Assembly: GCF_000148725.1 (NCBI RefSeq)
Contig: NZ_GL476315.1
Location: 133,173 to 197,172 of the forward strand
Source: Roseibium sp. TrichSKD4
GTDB lineage: Bacteria; Pseudomonadota; Alphaproteobacteria; Rhizobiales; Stappiaceae
Direction of reading: 5' to 3'
DNA length: 64,000 bases
A program made the translations under genes and the position numbers. How positions within the stretch are numbered: position 1 is the stretch's first letter; the number at the start of each line of letters is the position of its first letter. The notes beneath the pieces are model-generated. The model was not told the origin of the DNA. It made no database searches and saw nothing but the letters and a program-made list of their open reading frames with translations. This document shows positions 14,144 through 39,714 of the stretch, piece after piece.

Positions 14144-14169
14144 GTGGGACACCCCTCCCCAACGAGGGG
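14144..14169 (+). repeat. left attachment site (attL), 26-bp direct repeat
   Basis: These 26 bases, beginning GTGGGACACCCC, recur perfectly at 39689-39714 with the same orientation. The copy contains the hairpin CCCCTC / GAGGGG of the serC leader. A tyrosine integrase gene begins 31 bases inside, which is the usual att-int arrangement. Confidence 0.88.
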
Positions 14170-14200
14170 TAGCGAGCATTCATTTAAATCATTGTAATTA

Positions 14201-15181
14201 TTATATTATTTTCTTTGCAGTTTTGGCGTGTGCCACTGGTGTGTCAAAAACCCGATCGATTACACCATTGTCTTCGCTTGCGTGGCCGTAGGTCCGGAAG
14301 AGCTGCTGGGTGTCTTTCCACCCTCCGCGCTTTGCAACGGTGACCGGGTCCACACCGGCCTGAAGCATTGTCGTCGCAAAGCCGTGACGGCAGGCGTGAA
14401 AGGATAGGTGTTTTATTCCTGCTCGCTTGATCACCTTGTTCCATTGTATTTTGGCGGTGTCACGCGAGGAGTATTTGAATACCTTACCTGTGCGATCCCC
14501 TTCGATGTTGGCCATAGCGGCAACCAGGTGGGCAGGTAGATGCGCTCGGCGTTCGTCCATGATCTTCGTCTGGCGAATGAGGGCTTTTCGATCTGTTAGG
14601 GATACGTCTTCCCAATGCACATTGAGCGCTTCTGAAATGCGTGCGCCAGTGCAGAACATGAACAATGCCAATGCGCCCAAGTGAGGATTGGCGGAGACCA
14701 TGAATCGCTCGATCCAAACCGCAGTTGCCGGCTCTTTTTCTTTCCGCTCAACGGGGAAACGCTTAACAGAAACTCTGGAGCATAGTTCCAGTTCAGCAGC
14801 GTGATTGATGATGGCTTGGGTGGGAACAATGACCTGCCGGTTTCGTGTCGCCGCACCGGCATTGGGGTAAAGATCGAGGGCGCTTTTTCTGATTGCGCCT
14901 GGTGTGATTTGATTGACCAGAGTGTTTTTCCAGTAGTCTTCAACTGGAACAAGGAACCTGTCGGACTTCTCGGCCTCGCGATGGAGGAGAGCTGCTTGCG
15001 CAAATGTCAGGACTGCTTCTGGGCCATTGAGATGACTTTGCCAGTACCGCGCTTCGACCTTTGCGGCGATTTGCTGCGCGGTCGTTTTTTGCGTCGTTCG
15101 ACAAGATCCGCGTAGTCGATGTCCGGCAACAGTTCCGGCGTAGTGCCAGACTTCGCCTCGTTTGTAGAGCTTGAGTGGCAT
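14201..15181 (-). CDS. tyrosine recombinase (phage integrase)
   Basis: This 326-aa integrase should catalyse recombination at the 26-bp core next to it. The catalytic domain shows the first Arg in FCTGARISEALNVHWED, the second box FHACRHGFATTMLQAG (His-x-x-Arg), GGWKD and the nucleophile Tyr in FRTYGHA. The N-terminal part has MPLKLYKRGEVWHYAG, a beta-rich arm-binding start typical of this group. It points out of the element towards attL. The start overlaps the xis-like gene by 175 bases. Confidence 0.93.
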   Translation of the reverse strand: MPLKLYKRGEVWHYAGTVAGHRLRGSCRTTQKTTAQQIAAKVEARYWQSHLNGPEAVLTFAQAALLHREAEKSDRFLVPVEDYWKNTLVNQITPGAIRKSALDLYPNAGAATRNRQVIVPTQAIINHAAELELCSRVSVKRFPVERKEKEPATAVWIERFMVSANPHLGALALFMFCTGARISEALNVHWEDVSLTDRKALIRQTKIMDERRAHLPAHLVAAMANIEGDRTGKVFKYSSRDTAKIQWNKVIKRAGIKHLSFHACRHGFATTMLQAGVDPVTVAKRGGWKDTQQLFRTYGHASEDNGVIDRVFDTPVAHAKTAKKII

Positions 15182-15363
15182 GGTCTATGCGCCTCCACTA
15201 TCCGTTGCACATCTTCTGCGGTCAGCTTCATGCTTTTGCCGAACACATGGCAAGCGCCAATTTGTCGGGCGATCTCTCTAATTCGTCGCTCAGAGCATCC
15301 AACATATTCGGCAACTTCGCCAGGAAGGTAATATCTCGGAAGAATGTCTCGCAAGCTGCTCAT
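15007..15363 (-). CDS. excisionase-like HTH protein overlapping int
   Basis: This 118-aa basic protein has a MerR/Xis-like winged-helix start (YLPGEVAEYVGCSERRIREI, then KLTAEDVQRIVEA) and an Arg/Lys/Ser-rich tail (ERRKKRPRSKSPQRSKRG). It lies upstream of int on the same strand; its last 58 codons overlap the start of int in another frame. Position and fold suggest a recombination directionality factor; this is inference. If int started further downstream the overlap would shrink, but the int N-terminus looks genuine. Confidence 0.65.
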   Translation of the reverse strand: MSSLRDILPRYYLPGEVAEYVGCSERRIREIARQIGACHVFGKSMKLTAEDVQRIVEAHRPCHSSSTNEAKSGTTPELLPDIDYADLVERRKKRPRSKSPQRSKRGTGKVISMAQKQS

Positions 15364-15462
15364 CTGGTGCGCCTCAGTGCTGACGGTTGGAAATGATGTG
15401 CTGCCCTGGCCGGTGTTCCGGCTTCAGGGCAGCGGAGCGCGCGATGGGGCGTGCTTGTTGGT

Positions 15463-15738
15463 TCAAGTGCGGCCTCTGCGCTTCAGGGGGGAGCGCAGAG
15501 GCCGGGCGGGCCCCATGCCTTTCTTGTCGTCTGCCGGGGAGGAGGACGGCAAACGACGGCATTCTTGCGGGGCGGGAAACTGTTCAGAGGAATTTACGTC
15601 TGGCCAAGCATTGAATTGATGGCGCTGACGAGAGCCGCTGCATTCGCGGAATAGGATCAGTGCGGTTAATGCGGCGGAAGTTCCAATGGCGATGTATGGG
15701 GCATTTAGTCCTGCGATGACGAAGATCAGTTCCCACAT
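15463..15738 (-). CDS. small phage membrane protein, unknown function
   Basis: This 91-aa frame has a strong ribosome-binding site (AGGAGG) 6 bases before its ATG. Residues 1-30 are hydrophobic (one transmembrane segment), followed by a polar, Pro/Arg-rich tail of no recognised family. It lies between the xis-like gene and the operator region, on the same strand as int. Small membrane proteins at this place are common in temperate phages, but no role can be read from the sequence. Confidence 0.5.
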   Translation of the reverse strand: MWELIFVIAGLNAPYIAIGTSAALTALILFRECSGSRQRHQFNAWPDVNSSEQFPAPQECRRLPSSSPADDKKGMGPARPLRSPLKRRGRT

Positions 15739-15878
15739 TCCACTACCTCCTGAATAATCCCTAAAACGATTGGTGTTCGGCAGATTTTGTGACTGCTTTT
15801 TGATTGCCGTTATGCCGGTCTCTTTCGGTAGGAGGACGCGTCACGCGGATCAAAGTAGCGGCAATATTCTGACAATAA

Positions 15879-15895
15879 ATTGCCAAATAGGTAAT
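15879..15895. promoter_or_regulatory. phage repressor operator 1 (ATTGCC-N5-GGTAAT)
   Basis: This near-perfect palindrome is repeated at 17936-17952 with identical arms and N5 spacer. It lies 80 bases before the GNAT-like gene. A second shared palindrome, TTGATCAAA, lies close by in both regions. This is the pattern expected for sites of one phage repressor. Confidence 0.6.
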
Positions 15896-15976
15896 ATTGG
15901 TTTGATCGATTCGGTAAGAAATTGATCAAATGGCTGAATATAATGGCAATTCTCCGCCCAACCCGGTGGGGAGACT

Positions 15977-17434: not shown

Positions 17435-17857
17435 TCAATCTTCTTCAGTAACGGGGGCGTGTTGAGCTGCTATGTCCGAATAAGCCTGCTCTAATATTAT
17501 CGCAAAGTCTGCATTGGAGCCGCGCCCACCAAGCATGGTTTGTTCTATGGCACGTGCTCGTTCGTATGCTTTTTTGAAAAGATTCGGATCAATTAATAGC
17601 GCATCGTTAGCTGAATGGCCGCTAAGTGCTTCCTGTGCTTCTAATATGTCTGCGGGATGAGTGCCCAACAGGCTGTAGAATTCATCTACAGATTTCCCGC
17701 TGATTTCCGCCAATTTCTCGATGTGTTCAGTGGTTATTCGTCGTTTGTTGCTTCCCATCCGTGACAGGTGGGTTGCTGATACGCCTAGTTTTTCGGCGAG
17801 TTTCTCACCGGTGAGGCCGGTAAGTGATTTGGCTAGGGAAATAGGGCTCTTGGGCAT
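17435..17857 (-). CDS. phage repressor, XRE-family HTH
   Basis: This 140-aa protein has an N-terminal helix-turn-helix (LTGEKLAEKLGVSATHLSRM, then NKRRITTEHIEKLAEIS) and a helical C-terminus without a LexA-type protease motif. It faces the divergent Cro-like gene across a 115-base region that holds palindromic operators, which is the standard layout of a lysogeny switch. The ATG at 17857 is preferred to a TTG at 17884. The lack of a Ser/Lys cleavage domain implies that induction does not run through RecA-stimulated self-cleavage. Confidence 0.8.
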   Translation of the reverse strand: MPKSPISLAKSLTGLTGEKLAEKLGVSATHLSRMGSNKRRITTEHIEKLAEISGKSVDEFYSLLGTHPADILEAQEALSGHSANDALLIDPNLFKKAYERARAIEQTMLGGRGSNADFAIILEQAYSDIAAQHAPVTEED

Positions 17858-17935
17858 AACTAAATTATTGCCCGTTAAAATCAACGGTCTAGCGCCTATT
17901 TGGCAATCTGATGGGTATGGTTTTTGATCAAATAT

Positions 17936-17952
17936 ATTGCCTTAAAGGTAAT
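17936..17952. promoter_or_regulatory. phage repressor operator 2 (ATTGCC-N5-GGTAAT)
   Basis: Same palindrome as at 15879-15895, here between the repressor and the Cro-like gene, 21 bases before the Cro-like start. GCGGCAATTATTGC next to it is a related partial site. Confidence 0.65.
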
Positions 17953-17972
17953 ATTGCGGCAATTATTGCTAA

Positions 17973-18233
17973 ATGGTTGCGCTAAAGACATACTTGAAAC
18001 GAGAAGGCATCACCGGGAATGACTTCGGCGAGAAGGTCCGGGTTAGTGCCTCTACAATTTCGCGGATTTGTAGTGGCAAACGATTGCCGTCTGCACGCCT
18101 TGTGCGATTGATTGTCATGGAAACTGCTGGAGCTGTCACGGCGGTTGACCTCCTGAATTTGAACCTAGTTTCCACCTCGAGAAACAATAAGTCATCCCGC
18201 AGAGCTGAAGAAAATTGCGGGGTGGATCAATGA
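17973..18233 (+). CDS. Cro-like HTH protein
   Basis: This 86-aa protein has a helix-turn-helix at residues about 12-40 (GNDFGEKVRVSASTISRICS, then KRLPSARLVRLI). It is divergent from the repressor and is the first gene of the rightward early operon, the position of Cro. Its stop overlaps the next start (ATGA). Confidence 0.75.
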   Translation: MVALKTYLKREGITGNDFGEKVRVSASTISRICSGKRLPSARLVRLIVMETAGAVTAVDLLNLNLVSTSRNNKSSRRAEENCGVDQ

Positions 18234-18745
18234 ACGCACCCCGTCCAGCAGATCCCAACGCACTCAGGCGGATCAAGATTGCGACCCAACGCAGTATCGA
18301 GCTGTGCGGAGGTCAGGAAAGTACGGCAACAATTACCCGTGTCGGGCGCAATACACTCTCCGACTACAGCAACACGGGAAGTGAGCGGCACCAAGCGACA
18401 TACATGCCGGTTGATGTGCTGGCTGACATCATTCTTGACCGAAAGCAGTCGGGTGAAGTGCCAGCATTGCTTCATGAGCTGTGTCGGTTAGCGGGCGGGC
18501 GGTTCGTCAAGCTTCCGGAACCGGATACGTCAGCCAATGCCCGGCAGTATGAGTTGGCAGCAGCGGGTGTTGCCCTTTTGGAAGCTGGAACCGCCATTGC
18601 CCGCCAAGTCGCTGGCCCGTCAGAGGTGGAGTTTCCCGCTGTCATGAGCGCCATTGAAGACGCGCTTGGCAAGCTTTTGGAAGTTCAGTCTCAATTGAAA
18701 GCCGGCTCTCCCTTGCCCGTTACCGATAAGGAGGGCGGGGAATGA
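18230..18745 (+). CDS. phage regulatory (CII-like) protein, unknown
   Basis: This 171-aa protein overlaps the Cro-like gene in an ATGA. The N-terminal part (RSIELCGGQESTATITRVGR, then TLSDYSN) has the look of a non-canonical HTH like the CII-like regulators of alphaproteobacterial prophages, followed by a helical segment with ALLEAGTAIARQVAG. Function not demonstrated. Confidence 0.6.
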   Translation: MNAPRPADPNALRRIKIATQRSIELCGGQESTATITRVGRNTLSDYSNTGSERHQATYMPVDVLADIILDRKQSGEVPALLHELCRLAGGRFVKLPEPDTSANARQYELAAAGVALLEAGTAIARQVAGPSEVEFPAVMSAIEDALGKLLEVQSQLKAGSPLPVTDKEGGE

Positions 18746-20523: not shown

Positions 20524-20867
20524 ACGAGGATTATGCGCATCTTCTGCAGGATGCTCGTCTGAGTTTTGTCCGTGTCGGAACGGCTTTGAAGGCTGTGATG
20601 GCGACGCGCAACATGACCCTAGCTGAGGTGGCGTCTGAGAGCCGCGTCTCTCGTGCAACGTTGAGCCGGGTCTCCAATGGCTTTCAGGTCGGAACTCTTG
20701 AATTTTTGAAAATCTGCATTTGGGCGGACCTCAATCCGTTTGAAGCGTTGTGCTCGCTGGAACCGTCCGAAGACACACTGGATGTCTTGTTGTTTCACGG
20801 GAAAGCACCTCAGAAACCATCTGAAAAATCTCAGGAATTTGAAACGGAGAGGCCAGATAATGGGTAA
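20520..20867 (+). CDS. XRE-family HTH regulator
   Basis: This 115-aa protein has a helix-turn-helix at about residues 35-60 (MTLAEVASESRVSRATLSRV, then SNGFQVGTLEFLKIC). It is the third predicted DNA-binding protein of the early region. It overlaps both neighbouring genes by 4-8 bases. Confidence 0.75.
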   Translation: MNEDYAHLLQDARLSFVRVGTALKAVMATRNMTLAEVASESRVSRATLSRVSNGFQVGTLEFLKICIWADLNPFEALCSLEPSEDTLDVLLFHGKAPQKPSEKSQEFETERPDNG

Positions 20868-21477
20868 ATACTCCGATTTCAAACGCATTCCCAAAGACCT
20901 CTACATGACGCGTGATCCGCTGGCCGCGGCGCGTCTCATCCCGTTTTTGAAGGCAGAAGGGATTATGAGTTTTGTCGAGCCTTGTTATGGCTGGGGGCAC
21001 CTTGTCGGGCCATTGACGGCGGCAGGGCTGGAATGTCGGGGGCGTTACGACATCGAGCTGCGGGGCAGGGCGGTCAAGGATCATCTTGCGCCTGCCGCCT
21101 TCGGAACCTTGCAGCGACGCGACGGGTGGCAGTTGTCCTTTTTTGATCTGCATAACGCAGATGCGATAATCACCAATCCCCCATGGACACGAGCTGTCCT
21201 GCACAGATTGATCGCCCGGTGGGCGTTCATGGTGCCGACATGGCTGCTGTTTGACGCTGGCTGGAAGCACACACGGCAAGCGCGTCTCTTGATGCCGCTT
21301 TGCACTGACATTATGGCTCTGCCGCGTCTTCGCTGGTTTCCGGGAACAACCTCCAAGGCAGCAGATGATTGCTGCTGGTACCGCTTCCATGCGGCAGAGG
21401 CGGAGCGCATGGATTGCGCCCGTTTCTGGCCGCTCGGGTCAAGTCCGAAAAGTGATGGAAGCAGGAGGGCGTTGTGA
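20860..21477 (+). CDS. DNA-methyltransferase-like protein with NPPW motif
   Basis: This 205-aa protein starts at an ATG overlapping the previous stop region. It shows an AdoMet-type motif I analogue (SFVEPCYGWGHLVGPL), an acidic motif II (RYDIEL) and the adenine-methyltransferase motif IV ITNPPWTRAVLHRLI. The small size fits a solitary phage methyltransferase without its own specificity domain. Whether it methylates DNA is untested. It is the last gene before the deletion-like junction of the prophage. Confidence 0.65.
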   Translation: MGKYSDFKRIPKDLYMTRDPLAAARLIPFLKAEGIMSFVEPCYGWGHLVGPLTAAGLECRGRYDIELRGRAVKDHLAPAAFGTLQRRDGWQLSFFDLHNADAIITNPPWTRAVLHRLIARWAFMVPTWLLFDAGWKHTRQARLLMPLCTDIMALPRLRWFPGTTSKAADDCCWYRFHAAEAERMDCARFWPLGSSPKSDGSRRAL

Positions 21478-21485: not shown

Positions 21486-22292
21486 TCAGGGTTTCAGCTT
21501 GCCGATGAGTTCGACCACATTCGGTTGGGCATCTTCCTTGGACGAAACTTCGGCTGTTCTAAAGAGGGTTCTCAGGAACAAGATACGCTCTTCCTCAGTC
21601 AGCTTGGTATCCGGGTTTTCCTGAAGGCGGACATAAGACACCAGCAGGGCAAGCCGCTGGCGAGCATCATTTTCCAGTGCGAAATGGGAGGCGTTTTGCC
21701 GACTGAAAATGCGCAGCAACCATGCAACACCCAAGACAGGCAAGAGAATTCCTTTGAGGCTCAGGATCGCCCAGAGCCAGCTGGTGTTGCCTTTAGCCGT
21801 CAAATAAGCGTCCTGCCAGAAGTTTTGCCATGGGGTCGGGCAAAGGCTGTCATTGTTGCAAAGCTGCAGGACAATGGCCTGAAGAATACCAGTCTGGTTA
21901 AGGCCAAAGAGAAACAGAGCTGCGACCAACGTAACTGCAAACCACATAAAGTTGCTGGCACGTCTCAACTGGTGGTGTTGGATTTTGTCGTGCCAGTGTT
22001 TGGTCAAGCGCTCCAACCCTTCCGCTGCCGCTTCAGCACCAAGTGCAGCGTCGGTTTTCCGATGCGCGTCTTCTTCTATCGCATCGGCTTCACGTGCAGT
22101 TTGTTTTGCTTCCCGGAGCCTCCCAATAGCTTTTTGCTCGTTGGTTCGGGCGAGAACTTTCATCTCCCTTTCAAGTGTCCGGCGCTCCGAAAAACTGAGT
22201 TTTTCAACGATTTCAGGAACTTCAACAATAATGTCCTGAATAAATGCAGCAATAATTTCATCGGTGTTGGGTGTGGATTTGCGCCTTGCCAC
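21486..22292 (-). CDS. coiled-coil, two-helix membrane protein (DUF6161-like), inverted between early and tail genes
   Basis: It runs against the phage operons, at the place where terminase, head and sheath genes would lie. From the GTG at 22292 it encodes about 268 aa: an N-terminal coiled coil (RTLEREMKVLARTNEQKAIG), two transmembrane segments (FMWFAVTLVAALFLFGL; LSLKGILLPVLGVAWLL) and a C-terminal helical part (HFALENDARQRLALLVSYVR, then EEERILFLRTLFR) that recalls DUF6161 proteins. Its start overlaps the tail-tube gene by 29 bases, suggesting that the 5' end is at a recombination joint. The family assignment is tentative. Confidence 0.5.
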   Translation of the reverse strand: MARRKSTPNTDEIIAAFIQDIIVEVPEIVEKLSFSERRTLEREMKVLARTNEQKAIGRLREAKQTAREADAIEEDAHRKTDAALGAEAAAEGLERLTKHWHDKIQHHQLRRASNFMWFAVTLVAALFLFGLNQTGILQAIVLQLCNNDSLCPTPWQNFWQDAYLTAKGNTSWLWAILSLKGILLPVLGVAWLLRIFSRQNASHFALENDARQRLALLVSYVRLQENPDTKLTEEERILFLRTLFRTAEVSSKEDAQPNVVELIGKLKP

Positions 22293-22776
22293 TGACGACA
22301 GCGACACACGCGCACTGACTTTGACCAAGCTTGCGCTGCCGTCTCTGAAACTCGCCAAGGCAACCCATGATCCAGCCGGTGGTCCGGGGGCCGTTGGCTT
22401 CGTCAAGCCGAAGCTGGAGGAACTCAGCCCAAAGGCCGAAATTGCCGGTCTTGATGAGCGCTTTATCGGCCTGATCGGTACGAAACAAGCATTCGAGTTC
22501 GCCAAGGTCTGGACGGACAAGGAAGACGGGCAGGACTACAGCGTTCGCGGTGAAATCCACGGTGTTCTGATGTCTTGGGAGCCGGATGAAGCCGGAGGCG
22601 GAGCCGAGATCCACAAGTGCAATCACGAGTTCGCTGAGGTCACGCGCTACACCTATTACATCAATGGGCGGCGGATCTTTGATTACGATTACTTCGCGAT
22701 CAAGGCGTTCTTTGGCGACAATGATCTGTTCGAGAGCTATCGCCGTGGTCTTGGGATCGGTGGAGCACGCGGTTAA
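22264..22776 (+). CDS. phage tail tube protein (P2 FII-like)
   Basis: This 170-aa protein has the FII layout: LTLTKLALPSLKL with a GG turn after it (DPAGGPGAVGF), a charged middle, and the C-terminal strand pair EVTRYTYYINGRRIFDYDYF. It would build the inner tube of a contractile tail. It starts at GTG without a visible ribosome-binding site and overlaps the divergent membrane-protein gene, so its first codons and promoter may have been lost in the deletion that removed the upstream phage genes. Confidence 0.72.
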   Translation: MLGVDLRLATDDSDTRALTLTKLALPSLKLAKATHDPAGGPGAVGFVKPKLEELSPKAEIAGLDERFIGLIGTKQAFEFAKVWTDKEDGQDYSVRGEIHGVLMSWEPDEAGGGAEIHKCNHEFAEVTRYTYYINGRRIFDYDYFAIKAFFGDNDLFESYRRGLGIGGARG

Positions 22777-22792
22777 GTGAGAGGGAGAGATT

Positions 22793-23298
22793 ATGCTGAA
22801 ACCGGTAAAACTGCCTCTGACTGCAGAGGCTGAGTGGGAAGGCGAAACGATTTGCGAGCTGATCATCAGACCGGTTCGGATGATCGATCTTGAAAACTCT
22901 GATGGGGCGGAAAACGAGGAAGAGGCTTTCAAGATCCTCATTGCCGGAATGATCCGCATGCCCATCGAGTTTTTAGGCGAGCTTGGCCCGGATGATTGGG
23001 AGGCGCTTGCGCTTGCCAGCCCGCCATTGATGGGAAAACGGGCTCAAGATGTCATGGCGCAGCAGAAACAAAAGACTGCTGCGCCCAAAAAAAAAGCGAC
23101 CCGGGCTCGGTCGAGGCGCTCCTAGAAAAGGTGCATGGTGAACCGGAGCAAACCTTTGTTCCCATTCGCGACATGATCATCATCATGGCTCGGGAAACGA
23201 TGACCCCGGTTCAAGACATCAGGCTCTGGACTGTCGACGATTTTTTTCTCTACGCCGACAGTCTGATGCGGCTCCGCCGTCAGTCGGAAAAGCCATAG
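22793..23298 (+). CDS. tail assembly chaperones E and E+E' (programmed -1 frameshift)
   Basis: The zero frame from 22793 gives the 110-aa E protein ending at 23125. Near its end a run of nine A (23087-23095) forms three in-frame AAA codons. A -1 slip there opens a second frame to 23298, reading SDPGSVEALLEKV and then a helical segment with WTVDDFFLYADSLMRLRRQ, for a 168-aa E+E' fusion. This is the P2/lambda tail-chaperone arrangement, and the gene lies directly between tail tube and tape measure as expected. GAGGGAGAG precedes the ATG. Confidence 0.82.
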
Positions 23299-23606
23299 GA
23301 TTTGGCAACACGTCGGATCTGGGCGCAATGCGCTGTTTTGGTTGATGGGGTCATCTGGCCAAGATTGTATTGCGCACCCTGTGTCATCATTCCCAGTTCC
23401 GCCGCAAATTCCATGTCATCTGCGGGCACGGTCTTTTCGATATAGGCTTCGATTTTCGCCTGATTATAGGTAAACTCGCACGGCTCTTCACTCGCCAGAA
23501 CGTTGGAAAGCTGCATGACCGCCTGCATGCGTTCAAGGTCCGACCAGGCATGTGCAGACCCTAAAGTTCCAGTCAACAATGCGACTGCGACCAAAAACTG
23601 TTTCAT
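23280..23606 (-). CDS. secreted moron protein inside the tail operon
   Basis: This 108-aa protein has a clean signal peptide (MKQFLVAVALLTGTLGSAHA, cleaved before WSDL) and two Cys that could form a periplasmic disulphide. TTGGAGG precedes its ATG. It is inverted between E' and the tape-measure gene and overlaps E' by 19 bases, the arrangement of a phage moron expressed from the lysogen. No family recognised. Confidence 0.65.
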   Translation of the reverse strand: MKQFLVAVALLTGTLGSAHAWSDLERMQAVMQLSNVLASEEPCEFTYNQAKIEAYIEKTVPADDMEFAAELGMMTQGAQYNLGQMTPSTKTAHCAQIRRVAKSYGFSD

Positions 23607-23660
23607 CTAAACCTCCAATAAAAACGGGGCAAGCTTAGCCGCTTGCAAGTTTGAAGCGCA

Positions 23661-28811: not shown

Positions 28812-28831
28812 CATTGAAAATGGAGACCTGC

Positions 28832-30173: not shown

Positions 30174-30532
30174 TGGATATCGAGCAACATTTTGGCGTCA
30201 AGATCTCTGCGCTTGTGGCAGGCCTTGTCGGGGCAGTGGTCAGTTTGACCTTCATGCGTGATCTAAGTCCGGCGCGGGCATTGCTTTACATCATCACCGG
30301 GACAGCCTGTGCGGCCTATGGCACGCCCTTGGTGGTGAAATGGCTCAGCCTGACAGGCCCAACGGAAAACGGGATCGCGTTTATAACCGGCATGGTCGGG
30401 ATGAATATTCTGGCTGGTGTCTTCAAGATCAGTGAGCGGTTCAAGCGCGAGCCGGTCAAGACGTATCACGCGATCAAAAACGCGCCGCTGGATGCTTTGA
30501 AAGACAAGAAGCCGGACGGAGGGTCCGGCTGA
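30173..30532 (+). CDS. holin-like phage membrane protein
   Basis: This 119-aa protein overlaps the previous stop (TGATG). It has hydrophobic segments at about residues 11-29 (ISALVAGLVGAVVSLTFM), 35-58 and 70-90, a charged C-terminus (KDKKPDGGSG) and lies between lysis genes. Three membrane segments with a charged tail fit a class I holin. Confidence 0.6.
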   Translation: MDIEQHFGVKISALVAGLVGAVVSLTFMRDLSPARALLYIITGTACAAYGTPLVVKWLSLTGPTENGIAFITGMVGMNILAGVFKISERFKREPVKTYHAIKNAPLDALKDKKPDGGSG

Positions 30533-31133: not shown

Positions 31134-32024
31134 TTAAGACGTTTGACAGAAGGCATCTCTCAATAATTCTGAGGCCTTTGACAGCCTTTTGTTCGATCTC
31201 CAGATCACACCTACATCCATTTTCGGGATGGGTTCAGCTATATCAATTCGCTCAATACGTCGCCCGTCTAAGGTCCAAGGACGATAAACCACGTCGCTCA
31301 AAATAGTAACAGCGCCTCCAATGCCGACAAAGTTTCGAACCGCTTCAATGGAGGATGAGGCAAACTTCACTTTCGGAGAAGTTATTGGGTTTTTCCAATA
31401 GGAGAGCGCCTGTTTTTCGGCTTCATCAGAGCGCAACACCGCATAAGGTTCGCTTGCAACGTCTGTTAAGCTTATTTGTTTGTAGTCTGCGAATGGATGA
31501 TTACTGGCGACCCAAAGACGGCGGGCAGATACATGAAATGTTTTGTTTTCAATATTGGTTTTTCCTGAAATATTTGAAGTTAGCACGAGTGCTAGATCGA
31601 GCTCATCATCGTTGATTTTTCTTTCCAATTCCTCCCTGAAATCTTCGGAAACGTCCAGAATGATTTCTGGATATCTTCGTGCGAAACGCTCAATTACTGG
31701 AAATGCAAAATAACTTGATAGTGTCCAACTCATGCCGAGTCGAACGTTTCCAGTAACGCAATGGGCTTCAGATTTAACATTTCGTAAAGCCGCGTTGAGC
31801 TCGGTTGAAATGATATGTGCGTGACTTTTAAACCGATGCCCCGCATTCGTTAATCTTAGGTGTCGTGGAAGGCGTTCAAAGAGTTCAACTCCTAGATGCG
31901 CCTCTAGCTCCTTGATGGATATCGTAATTGTCGATTGGGATACATTCAAAGCGCGGGCCGCAGCAGAAATCTGCTGTGTTTCTGCGACAGCTAAAAAGTA
32001 GGTTATTTGCCGTGTTGATATCAT
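31134..32024 (-). CDS. LysR-family transcriptional regulator
   Basis: This 296-aa regulator has an N-terminal winged HTH (TYFLAVAETQQISAAARALN, then VSQSTITISIKELEAHLGV) and a C-terminal substrate-binding domain (GNVRLGMSWTLSSYFAFPVI). It is divergent from the small gene at 32116 with a 91-base AT-rich gap, where LysR binding would be expected. Target and inducer are unknown. Confidence 0.9.
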   Translation of the reverse strand: MISTRQITYFLAVAETQQISAAARALNVSQSTITISIKELEAHLGVELFERLPRHLRLTNAGHRFKSHAHIISTELNAALRNVKSEAHCVTGNVRLGMSWTLSSYFAFPVIERFARRYPEIILDVSEDFREELERKINDDELDLALVLTSNISGKTNIENKTFHVSARRLWVASNHPFADYKQISLTDVASEPYAVLRSDEAEKQALSYWKNPITSPKVKFASSSIEAVRNFVGIGGAVTILSDVVYRPWTLDGRRIERIDIAEPIPKMDVGVIWRSNKRLSKASELLRDAFCQTS

Positions 32025-32115
32025 ATGAAAAAAATCAATACCGACTATTTAGTATTTGAAATTTAAATGTATTTATTGCTGTGTCAAGGTCGCTCTGCTT
32101 ACGTGGAGATAGGTC

Positions 32116-32400
32116 ATGAAATTAAAGGAAGAACGCTTACATTCTGAGGTTTATAGGGGCAATGAAGGAAAGTCAGAGGATGCTGCTTCAGCTCCAGATG
32201 GCAATGACCTGCTGAGCCATAGTTTGCCACAAGACGTACCTAAGAGGAAATCGGACTGGCTCTCCGTTTTAAAAAGTTTTTTGAGATCCTTTCGAACGCG
32301 AACTGGCGAAGAACAAACCCCCGATTTCACAAACATGGGAAACACTGATTTCTCAGAACCAAATTGGCACGGGCATTGGCAATCAACAAAATGGCTATAA
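32116..32400 (+). CDS. small hydrophilic protein, unknown
   Basis: A 94-aa frame with GGAG 8 bases before the ATG. It is polar, with KSDWLSVLKSFLRSFRTRTG in the middle and a Trp-rich end (EPNWHGHWQSTKWL). It is divergent from the LysR gene, which supports it being real, but there is no recognised family. A − strand frame over it lacks good signals. Confidence 0.4.
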   Translation: MKLKEERLHSEVYRGNEGKSEDAASAPDGNDLLSHSLPQDVPKRKSDWLSVLKSFLRSFRTRTGEEQTPDFTNMGNTDFSEPNWHGHWQSTKWL

Positions 32401-32491
32401 GCAGCGTAATCTGGGTGACTTTTTAGACCGATTATATTTGTCGGCAGTACCAACTGACCTGTTTGGAAATCTTGTTTGAGGAGCGTCATTC

Positions 32492-32893
32492 GTGAGTAAA
32501 GTGATGCATGGCCGGTGTCTTTGCGGAGATATCGAGTTTCAGGCGATAGTCCCGAAAAAGGAATACTACGCCTGCCATTGTAATATGTGCCAAAAATGGT
32601 CGTCGGGGCTTCACTTCAGTGTAATAGCTGAAGAATTGAATCTTAGAGCACATGAAAACTTGCAGACCTTCCGGTCGTCTGAGAGCGCGGAAAGAGGTTT
32701 CTGTCGCCGTTGTGGTAGTAGTGTCCTTTATCGCAACGACAAGTCCAATCTGCTGGTTGTTAACCTTGGTTTGTTTGATCAGAGGCAGGACTTTATGATC
32801 GTCACCGAACTCTTCATTGATCAAGGCCTTTGTTCGCTAGACGGCGGGCATAATCGGCTATCCGAAAAAGATATGGAAATGCGTGACTTATAA
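32492..32893 (+). CDS. GFA-family (glutathione-dependent formaldehyde-activating-like) protein
   Basis: This 133-aa zinc-binding protein has the GFA cysteine pattern: GRCLCGDIEFQA, YYACHCNMCQKWSSG and GFCRRCGSSVLYRN. Such proteins have a Mss4-like fold; true glutathione-formaldehyde activity is known for only a few. It starts at GTG with GAGGAG upstream and overlaps the following GNAT gene. Confidence 0.88.
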   Translation: MSKVMHGRCLCGDIEFQAIVPKKEYYACHCNMCQKWSSGLHFSVIAEELNLRAHENLQTFRSSESAERGFCRRCGSSVLYRNDKSNLLVVNLGLFDQRQDFMIVTELFIDQGLCSLDGGHNRLSEKDMEMRDL

Positions 32894-33326
32894 GGAGTTT
32901 CAAATCATTTTCTCGTCTGAGTTGGAAATCAAGAAAATAGCCGCCGAGGAAGCGATTGATATTCGTCATCGGGTTATGTGGCCTGATCGTCCTCGGAGGG
33001 ATGTTATCCTGGCAGATGACATGAAAGCCCTGCACTTTGGTGCTTTCAAGAACGGACAGTTAGTTGCTGTTGGCAGTTTTTTTAACGACAGTGGGGTCGT
33101 CCGACTGCGTAAGCTAGCGGTTGAACATGAACACCAAGGCAACGGTATCGCCAGTAACTTGCTGCATACCGCGATAGAAGTGCTTCGTCGTGAAGGATGC
33201 ACGCGAATTTGGTGTGATGCACGTGTTTCAGCGTCCGAATTTTATCTGCGGAATGGTTTCAGTCTGGACGCGCGTGTCTTTCAGAAAAGGGGTAAAGACT
33301 ACGTTGTCGCAAATCGAGCCCTGTAA
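32883..33326 (+). CDS. GNAT-family N-acetyltransferase
   Basis: This 147-aa protein has the acetyl-CoA motif A LRKLAVEHEHQGNGIASNLL (Q/R-x-x-G-x-G/A type) and motif B RIWCDARVSASEFYLRNGFS. Its GTG start overlaps the GFA gene by 11 bases, so the two are coupled. Substrate unknown; probably a small-molecule acetyltransferase. Confidence 0.9.
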   Translation: MTYKEFQIIFSSELEIKKIAAEEAIDIRHRVMWPDRPRRDVILADDMKALHFGAFKNGQLVAVGSFFNDSGVVRLRKLAVEHEHQGNGIASNLLHTAIEVLRREGCTRIWCDARVSASEFYLRNGFSLDARVFQKRGKDYVVANRAL

Positions 33327-33537
33327 AAGAGCTGGTCGTGCGGGTTAAGCGAACCTTCGCATTCGAAAAAGCTACTGGATCATGTTTTCGGTCTTGGCAC
33401 CTTGAGGGTGAAGACGGGAAACCACTGTTTCCCGATATCGAGCAATCGAGGTGGCGCAGCGAATGTATGGAAGCTCCTATCGTGAAATTTGTATTGGAAA
33501 TGTCGAGCTCCTATATATGAAGGGCAGGGAGCTTCCG

Positions 33538-34200
33538 ATGTACGAAAAACTGAAGTATTTTCTTGGTGGTGCGATAGCTACGCTGGGTGTTGTCGTAACG
33601 ATTACAGACCCCGAGACACTTGAGAATGTGCTGACCTTCCCTGACCGTTTGTCGAGTCACTTTAAGGATGACGAAGCCTCACAAGTGGATTTGGTTGCAG
33701 CTAAAATCATCCTTGAAGCCCGCCTCAGTCGTGTTTTTGAAGAGAAGCTTGATCTTCCAGATGCAAGCAAGGACAAACTTGCAGCGCACTTCGCGGATAA
33801 ATGCACAGCCGGGATTGCCGATACGGCAAGTTTTGGAAACGATTTCTCGTTTGTCGGCAGTAGGGCTGTCATTCGAGAGCCGATGGACAGAGGGGCAACC
33901 TTCGAAACCGTCTCCGGCAACATCGCTACGTCAATCAAATCATTGCCGGTTCTGACAACTGGCTGTTCCTATTATGCTGGCGTTGTTTTGGGTCAAATGG
34001 GCCCGCTTGAATACCGGGACTTTGTCGAGAAACCATCTTCAGTCCCCCTACAAAACGGAGCGATACGATTGGTGGCAGGTGGTGGGTTGTTTGCGCTGCC
34101 AATAGTTTATGAGGCAATGCAAACCACAGTAGGAGACGGGAGCCAGCCTTCAGGCATCATAATTGATTCAGTTGGCGCTTCTTTTGATCTTAATAATTAA
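33538..34200 (+). CDS. anchored protein of unknown function
   Basis: This 220-aa protein has a hydrophobic segment near its N-terminus (about residues 8-25, FLGGAIATLGVVVTI), then a helical and beta-rich region (KIILEARLSRVFEEKLDLPD; TTGCSYYAGVVLGQMG). No known domain is recognised. ATG 33538 with AGGGAG upstream is chosen; an ATG at 33517 is also in frame. The 238 bases that follow (34201-34438) hold nothing convincing. Confidence 0.55.
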   Translation: MYEKLKYFLGGAIATLGVVVTITDPETLENVLTFPDRLSSHFKDDEASQVDLVAAKIILEARLSRVFEEKLDLPDASKDKLAAHFADKCTAGIADTASFGNDFSFVGSRAVIREPMDRGATFETVSGNIATSIKSLPVLTTGCSYYAGVVLGQMGPLEYRDFVEKPSSVPLQNGAIRLVAGGGLFALPIVYEAMQTTVGDGSQPSGIIIDSVGASFDLNN

Positions 34201-34438
34201 TACCCGAATGATACACGTATTTCTAAATCGAAAATAGCGCGCCTCTATTCCAGTTGTAAGGTCGAGCAAAAGTTGTCGGCTCCAAGCGCCATAATCGCTG
34301 GTGCATTTTGGTGGTTCTTGATCAGGGTAGCGGAAGCTCAAATTAAGCGGTTGTTTTGGCGATTTTGGCTATTCTCTCTGGCTGATTGTAGGGATGGTTG
34401 CGAAGAATATCTTCGAGCTTTCTATGGAAGGTTACACT

Positions 34439-34999
34439 TTACCGCTTCAGGCCAATGTGGTGGTCGGCGAAGATGTTTTGTTGATCACCGGCGCTTGCCT
34501 CGTGACATGTTGAACATACCTCCCTTGGCATTAATTCTGCGGTTGTGGAATAAGGTTCTGGATGGTGCCCGAATTGGAAAAAGCCCAGATATCCTGTTTC
34601 CGCCGTATAACGCTCGGTGTCCTTGATGATCATGCCGAGACCATTATAGTGGCTTTCGGAAACGGGTTCTCCAGCCTCCGCTGGGTGTGCAGGTGTGAAT
34701 TCCTTCGCAATCTGCGTTCCGTTCGGCCAAACCCCTGTTGCCATTTAAATCGCAAATGACTGAGGTTCGACGTATGTGTCGATGTATTCGTCATTCGGGA
34801 TGGGTAGGTTGTCGATAATGTTGACTGTCCCTTTCGGAAGGAGCGTTGTTCCAACGTTGACCCATTGGAGATAGTGCGGAGGGCGATTAAGCGTTCCATC
34901 TTTGTTGATGGAAACTGGCAGTTTGACTTCCTTATTGGTTGCCGCTCCAACGCTGGCAAAAATGAATAAAATTGTGATGGCAGCTATGGTTCTCTTCAT
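34439..34999 (-). pseudogene. cytochrome P460-family gene interrupted by an in-frame TAA
   Basis: The first part (from ATG 34999) has a signal peptide and the P460 N-terminal pattern (PPHYLQWVNVGTTLLP). It ends at TAA (34745-34747), and the same frame resumes at once with MATGVWPNGTQIAKEFTPAH and runs to the c-type heme site CSTCH near the C-terminus, ending FADHHIGLKR. Without the TAA it would be one 186-aa cytochrome P460. The stop is followed directly by ATG, so the second half could in principle be re-initiated, but it would lack a signal peptide. Likely a nonsense mutation. Confidence 0.75.
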
Positions 35000-35063
35000 C
35001 TGAAACACCGTCTGAGGAAAAGGGCAGCCTTCTGCAGCACAAGGTTACAGAAGGTTGCTTGCA

Positions 35064-36134
35064 TTATTTTGCTGGGCTTATGTATGGAAACTCTTCGCGA
35101 TAGCGTTTTCCATCGTTTGCAAAATCGTCGATGGCCACACCATTCATCAATTGAAGCACGGTATTCATGGCGTCATCTTGAAGAGGGCGGCCATTGAGCT
35201 CATCGACCACATAGTTTGCTTTTGAACCAATGGTGTAGGTGATGACATCAGGCATTACCAAGTCCGCGACCGTTTGAGCGTATTCCATCTCCCGCCCCTT
35301 TTGAGAGCCTGAAACTGAAACAGCCCAGAAGGTATTGTTCACCACAGCCTGCCGGCGTTCTTCAACATCAAGATCGGGTCTATGTTGCTGGTGATCTTCT
35401 TGTACTGCCGGAGTGTCTGCCAGAAAAACGTATGGGAACAAGACGTTAGCCAATCGATCAACTTGTCGCCACTCACCCTTGTGCATTGTGGCTGTGGTTG
35501 TGAAATATTTTACCTTGTCGCCAAGCATGCTGTTTGGGATGTCTGCGACAATAAAGCTTGCAGTCGCATTGGCGAACAGGTCGCCGCCTTCCTTAAACGC
35601 GTCGGGTTTGAACTGGCCGCGCTGTCTGCTGTCATTAAAATCGGCTAAACCGATGCCATTTCCGAAAAACGGATCGTTTCCCCGTCCGGCCCAAATGCGG
35701 ATGCCACCGGTGATCTCGAAGGCTGCTCCTACTTTTCCCTGCCCAATCGGGTTTCCTTTTTCCCCTATGGGCGAATTGGGGGATGTGAGTTTGGACACCG
35801 TGATGTCTTCTCCAAGGAAAGAAAACGCGAGTGTCATGCCTGTTTTGAATTTTTCATCCCCGGCTATGTGGAGGTTATACAATCCGCCTTGCCCGAAAAC
35901 CACTCCGGCGGGAGGCTTGTTGGAGCCCGGTGTGCTTGGATTGGAGGAGAGGATGAATGACGTATATCCTTCAGTGCTTGATTGGAACACGTATGCGTCA
36001 TCGAGGTCATAGGCCGGATACATACTTTGCAGGCCGGATATAAAATGTCCAGCAGCTAGCGTGGGCGATGCGAAGGCTGACATAACGATGGCCGAAATCG
36101 CAAAAACTGTCCCATTTGAATTCCCTATTTTCAT
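35064..36134 (-). CDS. secreted DUF4331-family protein
   Basis: This 356-aa protein has a signal peptide (cleavage near TLAA|GH) and the DUF4331 features: an Asp-rich start (YPAYDLDDAYVFQSSTEGYT), the middle RIWAGRGNDPFFGNGIGLAD and the C-terminal VDELNGRPLQDDAMNTVLQL, then MNGVAIDDFANDGK. The function of the family is unknown. AGGGA lies before ATG 36134. The P460 gene follows downstream on the same strand, so they are probably co-transcribed; a LysR gene is divergent upstream. Confidence 0.85.
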   Translation of the reverse strand: MKIGNSNGTVFAISAIVMSAFASPTLAAGHFISGLQSMYPAYDLDDAYVFQSSTEGYTSFILSSNPSTPGSNKPPAGVVFGQGGLYNLHIAGDEKFKTGMTLAFSFLGEDITVSKLTSPNSPIGEKGNPIGQGKVGAAFEITGGIRIWAGRGNDPFFGNGIGLADFNDSRQRGQFKPDAFKEGGDLFANATASFIVADIPNSMLGDKVKYFTTTATMHKGEWRQVDRLANVLFPYVFLADTPAVQEDHQQHRPDLDVEERRQAVVNNTFWAVSVSGSQKGREMEYAQTVADLVMPDVITYTIGSKANYVVDELNGRPLQDDAMNTVLQLMNGVAIDDFANDGKRYREEFPYISPAK

Positions 36135-36341
36135 ATGCACGGTCCCTGAACTCGCTCAATTGACTTTTCGCTTCGACAGAAACACAAACTCGGTTTTTCT
36201 GTCGCCTCGGAGAATAGACCGCCAACATTGATTGAAAAGGAATAGAATTTATAACCGACGTATGCGGTTGTTACGAAGGTGGCACCCAAATAATATTGTG
36301 CTTGGATAAGCATCGGTTTCTCGATACGAGGCGCGCTCAGG

Positions 36342-37226
36342 TTGGATACAAAGCAAATCGGATATTTCGTTACTCTTGCGCAGACGCTGAATTTTTCAGA
36401 CGCAGCAGACATTCACAAAGTGACGCAGCCGGCCTTGACCAAAGCAATTCAACGGCTGGAAAAGGACCTCGGTGGCATGCTCATTCATCGGGATGGAAAA
36501 GATACTAGACTCACGTCCTTAGGGCGAATGGTTTTGCCCGATTTTACTTCAATTGCAAATATGGAAGAACGGGCACGGGAGTTGGCGAACGCCATTACAA
36601 TTGGGTATCAAGACAAAATCCGAATTGGGCTCGCCAGCACTATTATTCCCCAACAGTCTTCGGAGATTCTGAGAAGAATTTTTGCTGAAGTTCCAAAATC
36701 AAAGATCGTTTTTGATGTCGTTAAACCAATAGAACTGAACAAGCTTATCCTATCCGGAAAACTGGACTGCTGTTTCTGGTCCGATTTTGGGTACGAAAAT
36801 ATCAAACTATCGACAATCAAGCTTTACAGTGAACGGCTGCTGTTGGCATGCAGCCCCGATCATAGGTTCGCATCGATGGAAAGCGTTCCCATTAAAGAGC
36901 TCCAACAGGAACACTACCTAGAAAGAACGAATTGCGAGTTCCGCGATACTGCACGCGAAATTCTTGCCAGATATGGAACTTCGGTGAGGCCTGTGGCCGA
37001 ATCTGCGAGAGAGGATTGGATTCAGCACATGGTGATGAACAACCTAGGTGTCACCACGCTACCGGAACATTCTAGGCTGTTTTCAGCACTAGTTGTTAAG
37101 CCAATAGTGGGGCTCAACCTTGGTAGAAATGTTCATTTTGTCATGATTTCGGGATCTACTGCCTCCGAAGGTGCCAAGAAGATCGAGAATATAGTGAAGG
37201 AAACTCACTTTGCGCGACGGTCCTGA
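36342..37226 (+). CDS. LysR-family regulator next to the DUF4331/P460 pair
   Basis: This 294-aa LysR protein shows YFVTLAQTLNFSDAADIHKV and TQPALTKAIQRLEKDLGG in the HTH and an effector domain starting KIRIGLASTIIPQQSSEILR. It is divergent from the DUF4331 gene with a 207-base gap, the common arrangement of a LysR regulator and its target operon. Confidence 0.9.
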   Translation: MDTKQIGYFVTLAQTLNFSDAADIHKVTQPALTKAIQRLEKDLGGMLIHRDGKDTRLTSLGRMVLPDFTSIANMEERARELANAITIGYQDKIRIGLASTIIPQQSSEILRRIFAEVPKSKIVFDVVKPIELNKLILSGKLDCCFWSDFGYENIKLSTIKLYSERLLLACSPDHRFASMESVPIKELQQEHYLERTNCEFRDTAREILARYGTSVRPVAESAREDWIQHMVMNNLGVTTLPEHSRLFSALVVKPIVGLNLGRNVHFVMISGSTASEGAKKIENIVKETHFARRS

Positions 37227-37242: not shown

Positions 37243-37704
37243 TCAAAAATGCAAATATGCTTTTTCTATGACTTCCTTCAGGACAAAGAAACTTCTCAGC
37301 TGGCGGACGTTGGGTAGCGTTAGTAACTGGGCACGGTGCCGATTGTTGAAATCGGCAATGTCCTTTACGCGGATTTTTAAAAAATAGTCAAAGTCTCCTG
37401 CAACGCAGTGGCATTCGAGGACAAATGGGAAACGGGCAATTTCAGCTTCAAAGTCCGCGAAACTCTCAGGTGTTGATTGATCCAGTATAGCGCCGACCAA
37501 AACCAGTACGCCAAGATCTACGGCTTCAGGTCTTACACGCGCTGAAACCCCATCGATGATGCCCTCATCAAAGAGGCGCTGGATACGCCGATGACAAGTC
37601 GCTGCGCTGACATTCACCTGGGCCGCAATATCGGCATTGCTCATGCGACCGTCTGTCTGCAGGTACCTAAGAATCTTACGATCGATTTTGTCGAGATCGG
37701 ACAT
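37243..37704 (-). CDS. acdR: Lrp/AsnC-family regulator, probable AcdR
   Basis: This 153-aa protein has the AsnC-type HTH (DKIDRKILRYLQTDGRMSNA, then DIAAQVNVSAATCHRRIQRL) and the RAM ligand-binding domain (VLECHCVAGDFDYFLKIRVK). It is divergent from acdS across 157 bases, the arrangement of acdR-acdS in rhizobia and pseudomonads, where AcdR senses ACC/leucine and activates acdS. The name is by position and family. Confidence 0.85.
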   Translation of the reverse strand: MSDLDKIDRKILRYLQTDGRMSNADIAAQVNVSAATCHRRIQRLFDEGIIDGVSARVRPEAVDLGVLVLVGAILDQSTPESFADFEAEIARFPFVLECHCVAGDFDYFLKIRVKDIADFNNRHRAQLLTLPNVRQLRSFFVLKEVIEKAYLHF

Positions 37705-37861
37705 GAAAGAATCTTCCGAATAATCTGAATAATTTCTGTCATTGAGCGTTAATTGACAGGACTAATGAAGGAAGACAAGAAAAAAGCCTTCAAAATAGAG
37801 AGTACATTTCATTATTGCTTCGTTAGGGTTTCTCGAGCGCTCAATGCTGGGAGAAAATGCA

Positions 37862-38878
37862 ATGAAGCTATCTAAATTCGAACGATATCCGTTGACTTTT
37901 GGTCCGACGCCCATCGAATTTTTGCCGCGACTATCTGATGCTATTGGAGCGGAAGTCGAATTTTACGCGAAGCGGGAAGATTGCAACTCTGGGCTCGCGT
38001 TAGGTGGCAACAAGCTCCGCAAGCTCGAGTATATAGTACCGGATGCAGTGGCTTCCGGTGCAGACACGTTGGTTTCAATTGGGGGTGTCCAATCCAATCA
38101 TACTCGGATGGTTGCGGCGACCGCGGCAAAGATAGGCATGAAATGCGTCGTAATACAGGAAAGCTGGGTGCCTCACGATGACGCGGTTTATGACCGAGTC
38201 GGCAATATCCTTATGACCCGACTTATGGGTGCTGACAGCCGTCTTGTAGATGACGGGTTTGATATTGGCATTCGTCGGAGCTGGGAAGAGGCGATGCAGT
38301 CCGTCCGGGATGCCGGAGGTGTTCCCTATGCAATACCAGCAGGGGCTTCAGTCCATAAATATGGGGGGTTGGGTTATGCGAATTTTGCTGAGGAGGTGCG
38401 CTCTCAGGAAGCCGATCTGGGCTTCAGGTTCGACTATGTTGTTGTTTGCTGTGTGACCGGTTCAACACAGGGCGGAATGATCGTCGGGTTCGCAGCAGAC
38501 AACCGCGCCGACCGGGTAATCGGGATAGATGCTTCTGGGACGCCGGATCAATTGCGTGTGCAAATGCGCGGTATCGTCGATACGACCGCAAAACTGGTCG
38601 AGTTGGGCAGAGCGGTTCGCGAAGACGAGATTGTAATCAAAAAAGATTACGCCTATCCCTCCTACGGGGTTCCAAGCTCGGAAACCAATGACGCCATCCG
38701 TCTAGCCGCGCGAACAGAAGCGATGATTACTGATCCGGTTTATGAGGGAAAGTCTATGCAAGGAATGATCGACTTGGCGAAGAAGGGATTTTTTCCAAAA
38801 GGTTCCAAGGTTCTCTATGCCCATCTAGGCGGAGTTCCGGCGATCAATGGATACAGTTACACCTATCGAAATGGCTGA
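37862..38878 (+). CDS. acdS: 1-aminocyclopropane-1-carboxylate (ACC) deaminase
   Basis: AcdS is a PLP enzyme that cleaves the plant ethylene precursor ACC to alpha-ketobutyrate and ammonia. At 338 aa the length is exact for AcdS. It has Lys51 ([10 protein letters not shown]), Ser78 ([10 protein letters not shown]), Tyr294, Glu295 (DPVYEGKSM) and Leu322 (YAHLGGVPA), the set that separates true ACC deaminase from D-cysteine desulfhydrase. The ATG at 37862 is chosen over 37844 because numbering then matches the family exactly. It lies on the integrated element with its regulator. Confidence 0.96.
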
Positions 38879-39009: not shown

Positions 39010-39039
39010 AGCGGGGCCGTTTATCTCGGCCCCGCTTTT
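39010..39039. terminator. rho-independent terminator between acdS and the RTX fragment
   Basis: A 10-bp GC-rich stem AGCGGGGCCG / CGGCCCCGCT with a 7-base loop and TTTT on the + strand. Confidence 0.85.
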
Positions 39040-39043
39040 CCCA

Positions 39044-39418
39044 TCATACAAAGTGGAAGTCATCCAACTGCAACTGGCCGTCAATGCTATTGGTCGCGTC
39101 CGCCCCCCAGACAACATTGTTGCCGCTACCCATTTGAGCATTTTCAAATGCGCCTTGGGCCAGGGAGTATTGGCGATCGTCTGTGCCGAGATAAATCAGG
39201 GTGTCGATTCGCGCATCGCCTGAGAACCAGATGTCGTCTGCATCTGCATAGACAGTGTCGTTTCCATCGCCGCCCATAAGTGAATCTGCGCCTGATCCGC
39301 CGATCAAGGTGTCGTCGCCACCGTAGCCATGGATTACATCATTTCCGGCCTGCCCGCCTATGATGCTGTGACCAGCTGTTCCCCAGACGGTGTTATTGCC
39401 GGCGCGCCAACTCGTCTC
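39044..39418 (-). pseudogene. RTX (hemolysin-type calcium-binding repeat) C-terminal fragment
   Basis: A 5'-truncated open frame with three nonapeptide-repeat rows (GGQAGNDVI, GYGGDDTLI, GGSGADSLMGGDGNDTV) that bind calcium in secreted type I substrates. It has no start codon upstream of the repeats; the frame is closed by TGA just upstream at 39419. The natural C-terminus (DGQLQLDDFHFV) is kept. It is the remnant of a larger secreted protein cut during rearrangement near the element's right end. Confidence 0.75.
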
Positions 39419-39542
39419 TCAATCCATGGTTTGTTTTTCGCATCCTCACTCAAGGAAACTTATGCGCGAGTTTCTATTCGATGCCCAATGCGCACGAAAC
39501 AGTGAGCAGAAATGGGGAACATAGATCGAACAACGCTGTGTC

Positions 39543-39571
39543 AAACTTGTGTCAATTTCTGGCACAAGTTT
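39543..39571. repeat. inverted repeat near attR
   Basis: AAACTTGTG and CACAAGTTT are perfect 9-bp arms around an 11-base spacer, 118 bases inside attR. It may be an arm-type integrase/excisionase site or a terminator-like hairpin; there is no T-run. Confidence 0.6.
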
Positions 39572-39653
39572 CAGCTTTGTTCCGCAAGGTTTGGTTAGGT
39601 CCAGCAAGAACCTGCAAGTGTTGGGTCAAAAAACCTAGGTTTTTCAATGTGAA

Positions 39654-39682
39654 TTGACAGCGGTCCTCTATTTCAGTTAGTC
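39654..39682 (+). promoter_or_regulatory. element-borne promoter for serC (candidate)
   Basis: TTGACA lies 35 bases before the 26-bp core, with TTAGTC/TAGTCC 17-18 bases later. The native left flank has TTGACG 34 bases before the core. This element-end promoter would start transcription at about the first base of the serC leader hairpin. Confidence 0.55.
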
Positions 39683-39688
39683 CAGTAA

Positions 39689-39714
39689 GTGGGACACCCC
39701 TCCCCAACGAGGGG
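39689..39714 (+). repeat. right attachment site (attR), 26-bp direct repeat
   Basis: Perfect copy of 14144-14169, continuous with the rest of the serC leader. Confidence 0.88.

Follow-up and report, generated by a model that had tools for sequence, protein, structure and literature searches.

A phage-derived element integrated in the serC leader hairpin of Roseibium sp. TrichSKD4 and its putative replacement promoter

We analyzed a stretch of 64,000 nucleotides (here referred to as the window) of Roseibium sp. TrichSKD4 (contig NZ_GL476315.1, positions 133,173 to 197,172). Within the window glmM and a gene for an outer-membrane beta-barrel protein (OMP) are separated from serC and serA by a phage-derived element of 25.5 kb, which carries a tyrosine integrase gene at its left end (Table 1). 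The position of insertion is the untranslated leader of serC and not the coding sequence. This leader, the serC motif RF00517, is an orphan riboswitch candidate; in the available parts of two reports it has no known ligand (PMC1273637, PMC7266159).

The element is bounded by an exact 26-bp direct repeat on the forward strand, GTGGGACACCCCTCCCCAACGAGGGG. A first-pass annotation of the window had claimed perfect repeats at both ends and an integrase adjoining the left one. An exact search confirmed the former, and the latter agrees with the PF00589 and phrog_1 matches of the integrase gene, which points its 3' end towards the left repeat. A search tolerating up to 3 mismatches gave only these two copies in the 64 kb and none in 100 shuffled sequences, and a chance repeat was rejected on this basis; the window thus holds two copies rather than many. 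Allowing up to 7 edits gave eleven extra matches in the window, every one at 6-7 edits. The repeat consists of hairpin 1 of the serC leader (CCCCTC-CCCAAC-GAGGGG) and the 8 bases preceding it, so that the earlier statement that it is exactly the first hairpin stands for the inclusion of the hairpin but not for its limits. A search with RF00517 (cut-off 35 bits) placed a full leader directly before serC and a truncated one beside the integrase.

The sole tRNA detected in the window is located at 51777-51852, away from the element ends, and a tRNA gene as target was rejected. As in gene-restoring elements of the Islander type, the target is intact at one end and its displaced fragment lies at the opposite one, a repeat flanks the element and an integrase is located at an end. 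A site-specific integrated phage-derived element in hairpin 1 of the serC leader, as proposed by the first-pass annotation, is therefore strongly supported; the replacement promoter and the recurrence of the site described below go beyond that proposal.

The empty site was searched for in 397 genomes from the order of genome G002 (Jiella sp., found via an integrase match). A serC leader above the cut-off was present in 336 of these, five of them with two matches. The filters of this search were stricter and weak half-leaders were lost, as in G086 and G250, which gave one match each despite a half-leader. As empty sites we took 31 loci with a single leader (the 30 best-scoring ones of this search and one other) and examined up to 1.5 kb upstream. 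An OMP relative was found upstream of the leader in 15/31 and the end of glmM in 9/31, both numbers being lower bounds because of the short upstream stretch. The order in empty genomes is glmM-OMP-leader-serC-serA, and a longer upstream stretch of genome G187 reads tilS-ftsH-glmM-OMP-leader. Since relatives without the element have the OMP gene before leader and serC, the window represents the ordinary order, interrupted. Removal of the element thus restores an uninterrupted host order as had been predicted, and the two flanks are linked in relatives lacking it.

Two leaders in one genome did not prove an element, as among the five genomes concerned only G183 carries one. G080 has two different leaders on two contigs. 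The matches of G187 and G013 resemble points at which mixed assemblies branch, and G364 was not used since it has a partial tandem copy of leader hairpin 1. The latter copy (L049:635-707) is possibly a scar. The two G187 contigs (L057, L058) have the leader and the start of serC in common and differ upstream (OMP relative versus element-style promoter), which would fit a sample containing both occupied and empty sites.

Four further elements with both ends visible were found at the serC leader. In G183 16.8 kb lie between a full and a partial leader. The element of G086 is 9.7 kb in size with an OMP relative beyond the left attachment site (attL), and that of G405, from an IMG/VR record, is approximately 10 kb. 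In G250 the two ends are on separate contigs, attL next to an OMP relative and the right attachment site (attR) next to serC. All four carry an integrase of the window family at the attL end with 50-57% identity. The blocks shared end to end comprise 26 bp in the window, 38 bp in G183, 23 bp in G086 and 16 bp in G405. Two unusual bases are common to both ends in G250, as expected if the phage attachment site (attP) must match the bacterial one (attB). On the serC side a leader above the cut-off was found in 8/8 other loci.

Integrase relatives with an E-value of 1e-40 or better were present in 10 of the 397 genomes, in three of which (G183, G086, G250) the core lies beside the integrase. A genome scan with the window integrase itself gave 3 relatives, the best of them (44%, Jiella) with no core near it. 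Scanning IMG/VR with the exact core pattern returned 7 contigs, and 4 of these encode the integrase. Additionally, a profile was built from serC-site integrases, and the best 80 of 102 loci together with 6 from one genus were taken, giving 86 loci. Among these relatives of the window integrase (47-62% identical), 62 loci extended 100 bp or more past the integrase, and 19 of the 62 had the hairpin core 3' of int, a fraction that is not a rate given the serC-site origin of the profile and its limitation to the best 80 of 102 relatives. The core lies 6-22 bp from the int stop codon in 16 of these 19 and at 645-899 bp in three, and it was found on the 5' side of int in none of the 86 loci. These counts are not independent, because three pairs of integrases are identical (L115/L116, L121/L122, L142/L143) and L145 and L159 were already in the core-pattern scan. 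L118 was counted as having another site, its 677-bp flank ending before the core position of its near-twin L108 (686 bp). In L159, L167 and L172 the loop of the serC-site core lacks one base, and these three may represent an attP type of their own.

Upstream of hairpin 1 a promoter-like register was found on both host and element DNA, with a TA hexamer 12-13 bases upstream of GGGACACC and a TTG 16-18 bases before that hexamer. It was present in all sites compared, namely 31/31 empty hosts, 9/9 attR, 5/5 attL and 19/19 attP-or-attL sites, versus 1.2% of mononucleotide shuffles of the element sequences. For six of the nine attR sites (window, G183, G086, L038, L040, L044) an integrase was identified, while L039, L042 and G187-C208 (counted once) were assigned by position only; G404, one of the 19 attP-or-attL sites, has no integrase in its record. 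TTG-N19-21-TA within 110 bp occurred in 16/16 serC-site flanks with a near core, 12/41 flanks of integrases at other sites and 23% of shuffles. Corbino et al. 2005, in the part available, report that each of their serC motifs is directly preceded by a near-consensus promoter (PMC1273637), which supports the conserved register as a real promoter. As the element carries its pair in the host register, integration probably exchanges the promoter of serC and at the same time restores the leader. Judged from their sequences, related elements of other bacteria also appear to carry a replacement serC promoter.

Nine phage contigs were tested for genes beyond the core. Five of them (L104, L111, L114, L174, L181) have endolysin, tail or HNH genes there, and for this reason core and promoter look like attP in these five. 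Of the remaining four, L116 has a phage family of unknown function, L120 a methyltransferase, and L110 and L112 nothing recognisable. Repeats of the type GTG[TC]CA/TG[AG]CAC lie upstream of the element promoter, often 11 bp apart and mostly 100-153 bp from the core, and are likely arm-type integrase sites. At least two such motifs, which were picked after inspecting the sequences, were present in 14/20 element sides versus 1/31 hosts, and the heptamer TGACACA in 15/20 versus 1/31.

Tyrosine recombinases act at cores made up of two inverted arms around a short spacer, a layout shared by the DNA of a hairpin with its loop. The stem arms CCCCTC and GAGGGG would thus probably serve as inverted core-binding sites and the loop as crossover region. 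In attP the order would be arm-type integrase sites, promoter-like pair and 5' half of the leader. Integration would leave the host promoter, a dead half leader and the integrase at attL, and would assemble arm sites, element promoter, whole leader and serC-serA at attR. Because the repeat is perfect, the rebuilt leader of the window equals the empty leader from GTGGG onwards.

We therefore favour the reading that a phage-derived element was put site-specifically into the DNA of leader hairpin 1 by its own integrase, giving serC-serA a new promoter and a whole leader, and assign it a probability of about 0.86. The sequence itself shows the repeats, an intact leader, the conserved order of empty sites, the recurrence of the site, a promoter-like register and arm-like repeats; promoter activity, integrase binding, the crossover points and any effect on serine and pyridoxal phosphate (PLP) synthesis are what we infer from them.

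Several results weigh against this reading. The attL loop of G405 is one base shorter than its attR loop, a short form also present in L167 and L172. A class-wide sample of 385 genomes had 3 integrase relatives with the core beside none of them. A collection of deposited phages had no convincing core, and the attL stretch gave 13 weak Pseudomonas phage matches (E ~1) and the attR stretch none. A strict E. coli-type scan called neither of the two window promoters, and the arm motif was not found in 3 of the 20 element sides (L104, L115, L181). Integrases with 58-59% identity to that of the window, those of Bradyrhizobium phage ppBeUSDA76-2 and genome G037, are located at other sites. Furthermore, energy minimisation did not fold the attR leader into the two-hairpin form (z -0.05), so that this structure rests on the Rfam covariance model.

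Homologous recombination or duplication at the leader, rather than the integrase, might have produced the repeats; in favour of this, the ends of G183 share 38 bp, more than the core. However, many elements have the core next to an integrase of this family, mostly at the short distance from the stop codon given above and with differing flanks, which makes such an origin very improbable. Another alternative is that the element did integrate at the leader but keeps the TTG-TA pair for recombination, e.g. for bending by a host factor between arm and core, serC being driven otherwise or poorly. The pair does lie between the arm-like repeats and the core in attP and is missed by the E. coli-type scan. 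We nevertheless consider this unlikely: the same pair stands in the same register before the leader at all 31 empty sites, in which a phage plays no part, the promoters of Corbino et al. 2005 (PMC1273637) lie directly before all examples in the part available, and relatives with other targets have the pair about as often as shuffles.

Compatible with the favoured reading, the window element may be a dead relic that was once site-specific and now neither excises nor forms particles unaided. A complete temperate phage gene set was not recognised: the scanned open reading frames (ORFs) of the element include head-closure, tail and lysis genes but gave no match to a terminase, portal or capsid gene. 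A cargo block of ~8 kb and a short RTX-repeat ORF at the right end point in the same direction. On the other hand, the element still has its integrase frame, the two cores and three arm-like repeats, and as several ORFs had no family match the missing genes may be unrecognised, so that we put a relic slightly below even odds. Beyond the favoured reading, attP may double as a regulatory cassette in which the replacement serC promoter is flanked by integrase arm sites and the core. Serine/PLP synthesis would then come under element control, through occupancy by integrase or host factor and copy number upon induction, and the displaced host promoter would run antisense towards int. We regard this as a tentative and rather doubtful extension; if true, serine supply and prophage state would be coupled.

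The integrase family is not restricted to the serC leader. Residues R181, H262, R265, W288 and Y298, which we take to be the catalytic ones, were invariant in 8/8 integrases aligned. At 5 of the 62 loci (L098, L100, L101, L179, L180) the site is the hairpin of the Rhizobiales-2 RNA (RF01723), which Rfam confirmed in three host genomes; in G173 an 18-bp repeat bounds ~45 kb there. Two other host sites consist of 22- and 26-bp repeats, dyad-symmetric by eye, and G037 has only a 13-bp repeat at its integrase site. An integrase identical to that of ppBeUSDA76-2 (OP596614; 57.6% identical to the window integrase) was found in G795 beside a 22-bp repeat elsewhere, the serC leader of G795 being single. 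Identity to the window integrase thus does not predict the site, since integrases of 58-59% identity sit elsewhere, and the assumption that all members use serC was ruled out by the Rhizobiales-2 and other sites.

A tree of 93 integrases ruled out a single clean serC clade as well, the site label needing 8 changes. It left out G185 (a 98-aa piece), L003, G312, L006 and eight duplicate records; the 300-aa limit removed none. One group of 23 rows had only serC-site (12) or unknown-site (11) members with a support of 88/90, and the five Rhizobiales-2 members grouped with one other-site row. The remaining serC-site members were scattered, and the window integrase had no firm placement. On this tree site choice has probably changed several times.

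Islands in tRNA genes usually supply the 3' end of their target. As far as the available part of the Islander report describes them (PMC4383910), the window element resembles tRNA and tmRNA islands in that an RNA-coding sequence is split and rebuilt at one end with a fragment displaced; it differs in lacking a tRNA or tmRNA target and in supplying the 5' end and a promoter. In the accessible portion of Farrugia et al. 2015 (PMC4482086) tyrosine integrases place prophages and islands in the 5' end of dusA. Element DNA takes the place of that end, with putative -35/-10 regions both before and after insertion. Insertion at a 5' end by a tyrosine integrase is common to both; the promoter-like pair on the DNA of the window element stands in the host register but is not called by the strict E. 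coli-type scan. Unlike in dusA, where the coding sequence is hit, the target in the window is an untranslated leader hairpin with the coding sequence intact, and the promoter-like register matches that of the host in the sites examined. Promoter replacement at a 5' end has hence already been described, judging from that portion.

The RF00517 papers (PMC1273637, PMC7266159) describe the same leader and preceding promoters and, in the parts available, do not mention mobile elements. Among the titles listed by the literature searches, with subscription papers and supplements outside their scope, none reporting an integration site in the serC leader or a leader hairpin was found. The main text of a Sinorhizobium hot-spot survey and a 2026 integrase survey do not name serC, and a leader or riboswitch target was not found in the accessible parts of PMC7643969 and PMC10111431.

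The window element points to a second route by which a target may be spared, in which promoter and 5' half of the transcript are carried by the element. Together with the Rhizobiales-2 RNA and the dyad-like sites this suggests that RNA hairpins are targeted since their DNA gives ready-made inverted core sites. Natural promoter swaps before an intact serC leader would help to identify the signal that this leader responds to, and the integrases are a candidate family for inserting DNA into bacteria having this leader.

Table 1. Features of the element and its host flanks in the window
Feature	Position	Strand	Basis
glmM, left host flank	11661..13004	+	TIGR01455 647.7 bits, cut-off 447.55
OMP gene, left host flank	13226..14044	+	PF13505 7.7e-20
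OMP terminator-like hairpin, T-rich tail	14067..14098	+	read by eye; not listed by consensus scan
Displaced host serC promoter-like pair TTGACG-N17-TACTCC	14110..14138	+	register as in 31/31 empty sites
Truncated serC leader left behind	14142..14181	+	RF00517 38.9 bits
attL core, 26-bp direct repeat	14144..14169	+	exact repeat
Tyrosine integrase	14201..15181	-	PF00589 2.1e-23; phrog_1 8.2e-36
Helix-turn-helix (HTH) regulator (-), HTH regulator (+), CII-like activator (+)	17435..18745	mixed	phrog_8, phrog_35, phrog_101
DNA methyltransferase	20740..21477	+	phrog_799 2.2e-21
Head-closure, tail, tape-measure genes	22264..28758	+	phrog_55, 166, 28, 76; phrog_52
Endolysin (muramidase) and holin	28634..30532	+	PF11860; phrog_1224, phrog_2359
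Cargo: two LysR regulators, GFA, GNAT, DUF4331, unknowns	31134..37226	mixed	family matches
Lrp/AsnC-type regulator, divergent from acdS	37243..37704	-	PF13404, PF01037
acdS, 1-aminocyclopropane-1-carboxylate (ACC) deaminase	37844..38878	+	TIGR01274 540.6 bits, cut-off 392; PDB 1rqx 4.7e-153
Short RTX-repeat ORF, perhaps gene fragment	39044-39307		near element right end
Three putative integrase arm-type sites GTGTCA/GTGTCA/TGGCAC, 11 bp apart	39538..39565	+	motif count
Element-borne promoter-like pair TTGACA-N18-TAGTCC	39654..39683	+	register match to hosts
Regenerated full serC leader	39687..39738	+	RF00517 71.1 bits
attR core, 26-bp direct repeat	39689..39714	+	exact repeat
serC	39738..40916	+	NF002841 711.6 bits; TIGR01365 698.2 bits
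serA	40998..42584	+	TIGR01327 670.2 bits, cut-off 454

An IMG/VR record of 16,631 bp begins at window position 14201, and the 10,981 bp compared were identical to the window. By its length the record would stop near 30831 and leave out the cargo, which includes two LysR regulators, GFA, GNAT, the Lrp-type regulator and acdS. The ACC deaminase gene and its divergent regulator (37243-38878) are thus carried as cargo of a phage-derived element, in an arrangement like that of acdR-acdS in plant-associated bacteria.

Capsid-forming satellites of the phage-inducible chromosomal island (PICI) type have their own capsid and packaging genes, lack tail genes and are induced by a helper phage. The elements of G086 and G405 (L086, L044; 9.7 and 10 kb) carry terminase, portal, protease, capsid and replication genes with no tail gene recognised; by gene content they fit this type and are candidate capsid-forming satellites. 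The window element, unlike these, has head-closure, tail and lysis genes and no capsid gene was found in it. The element of G183 encodes a homologue of the abortive-infection protein BstA (L056:3051-3836; phrog_6287, 4.7e-59). Apart from the serC leader, the window contains a thiamine pyrophosphate (TPP) riboswitch at 47184-47288 (76.3 bits).

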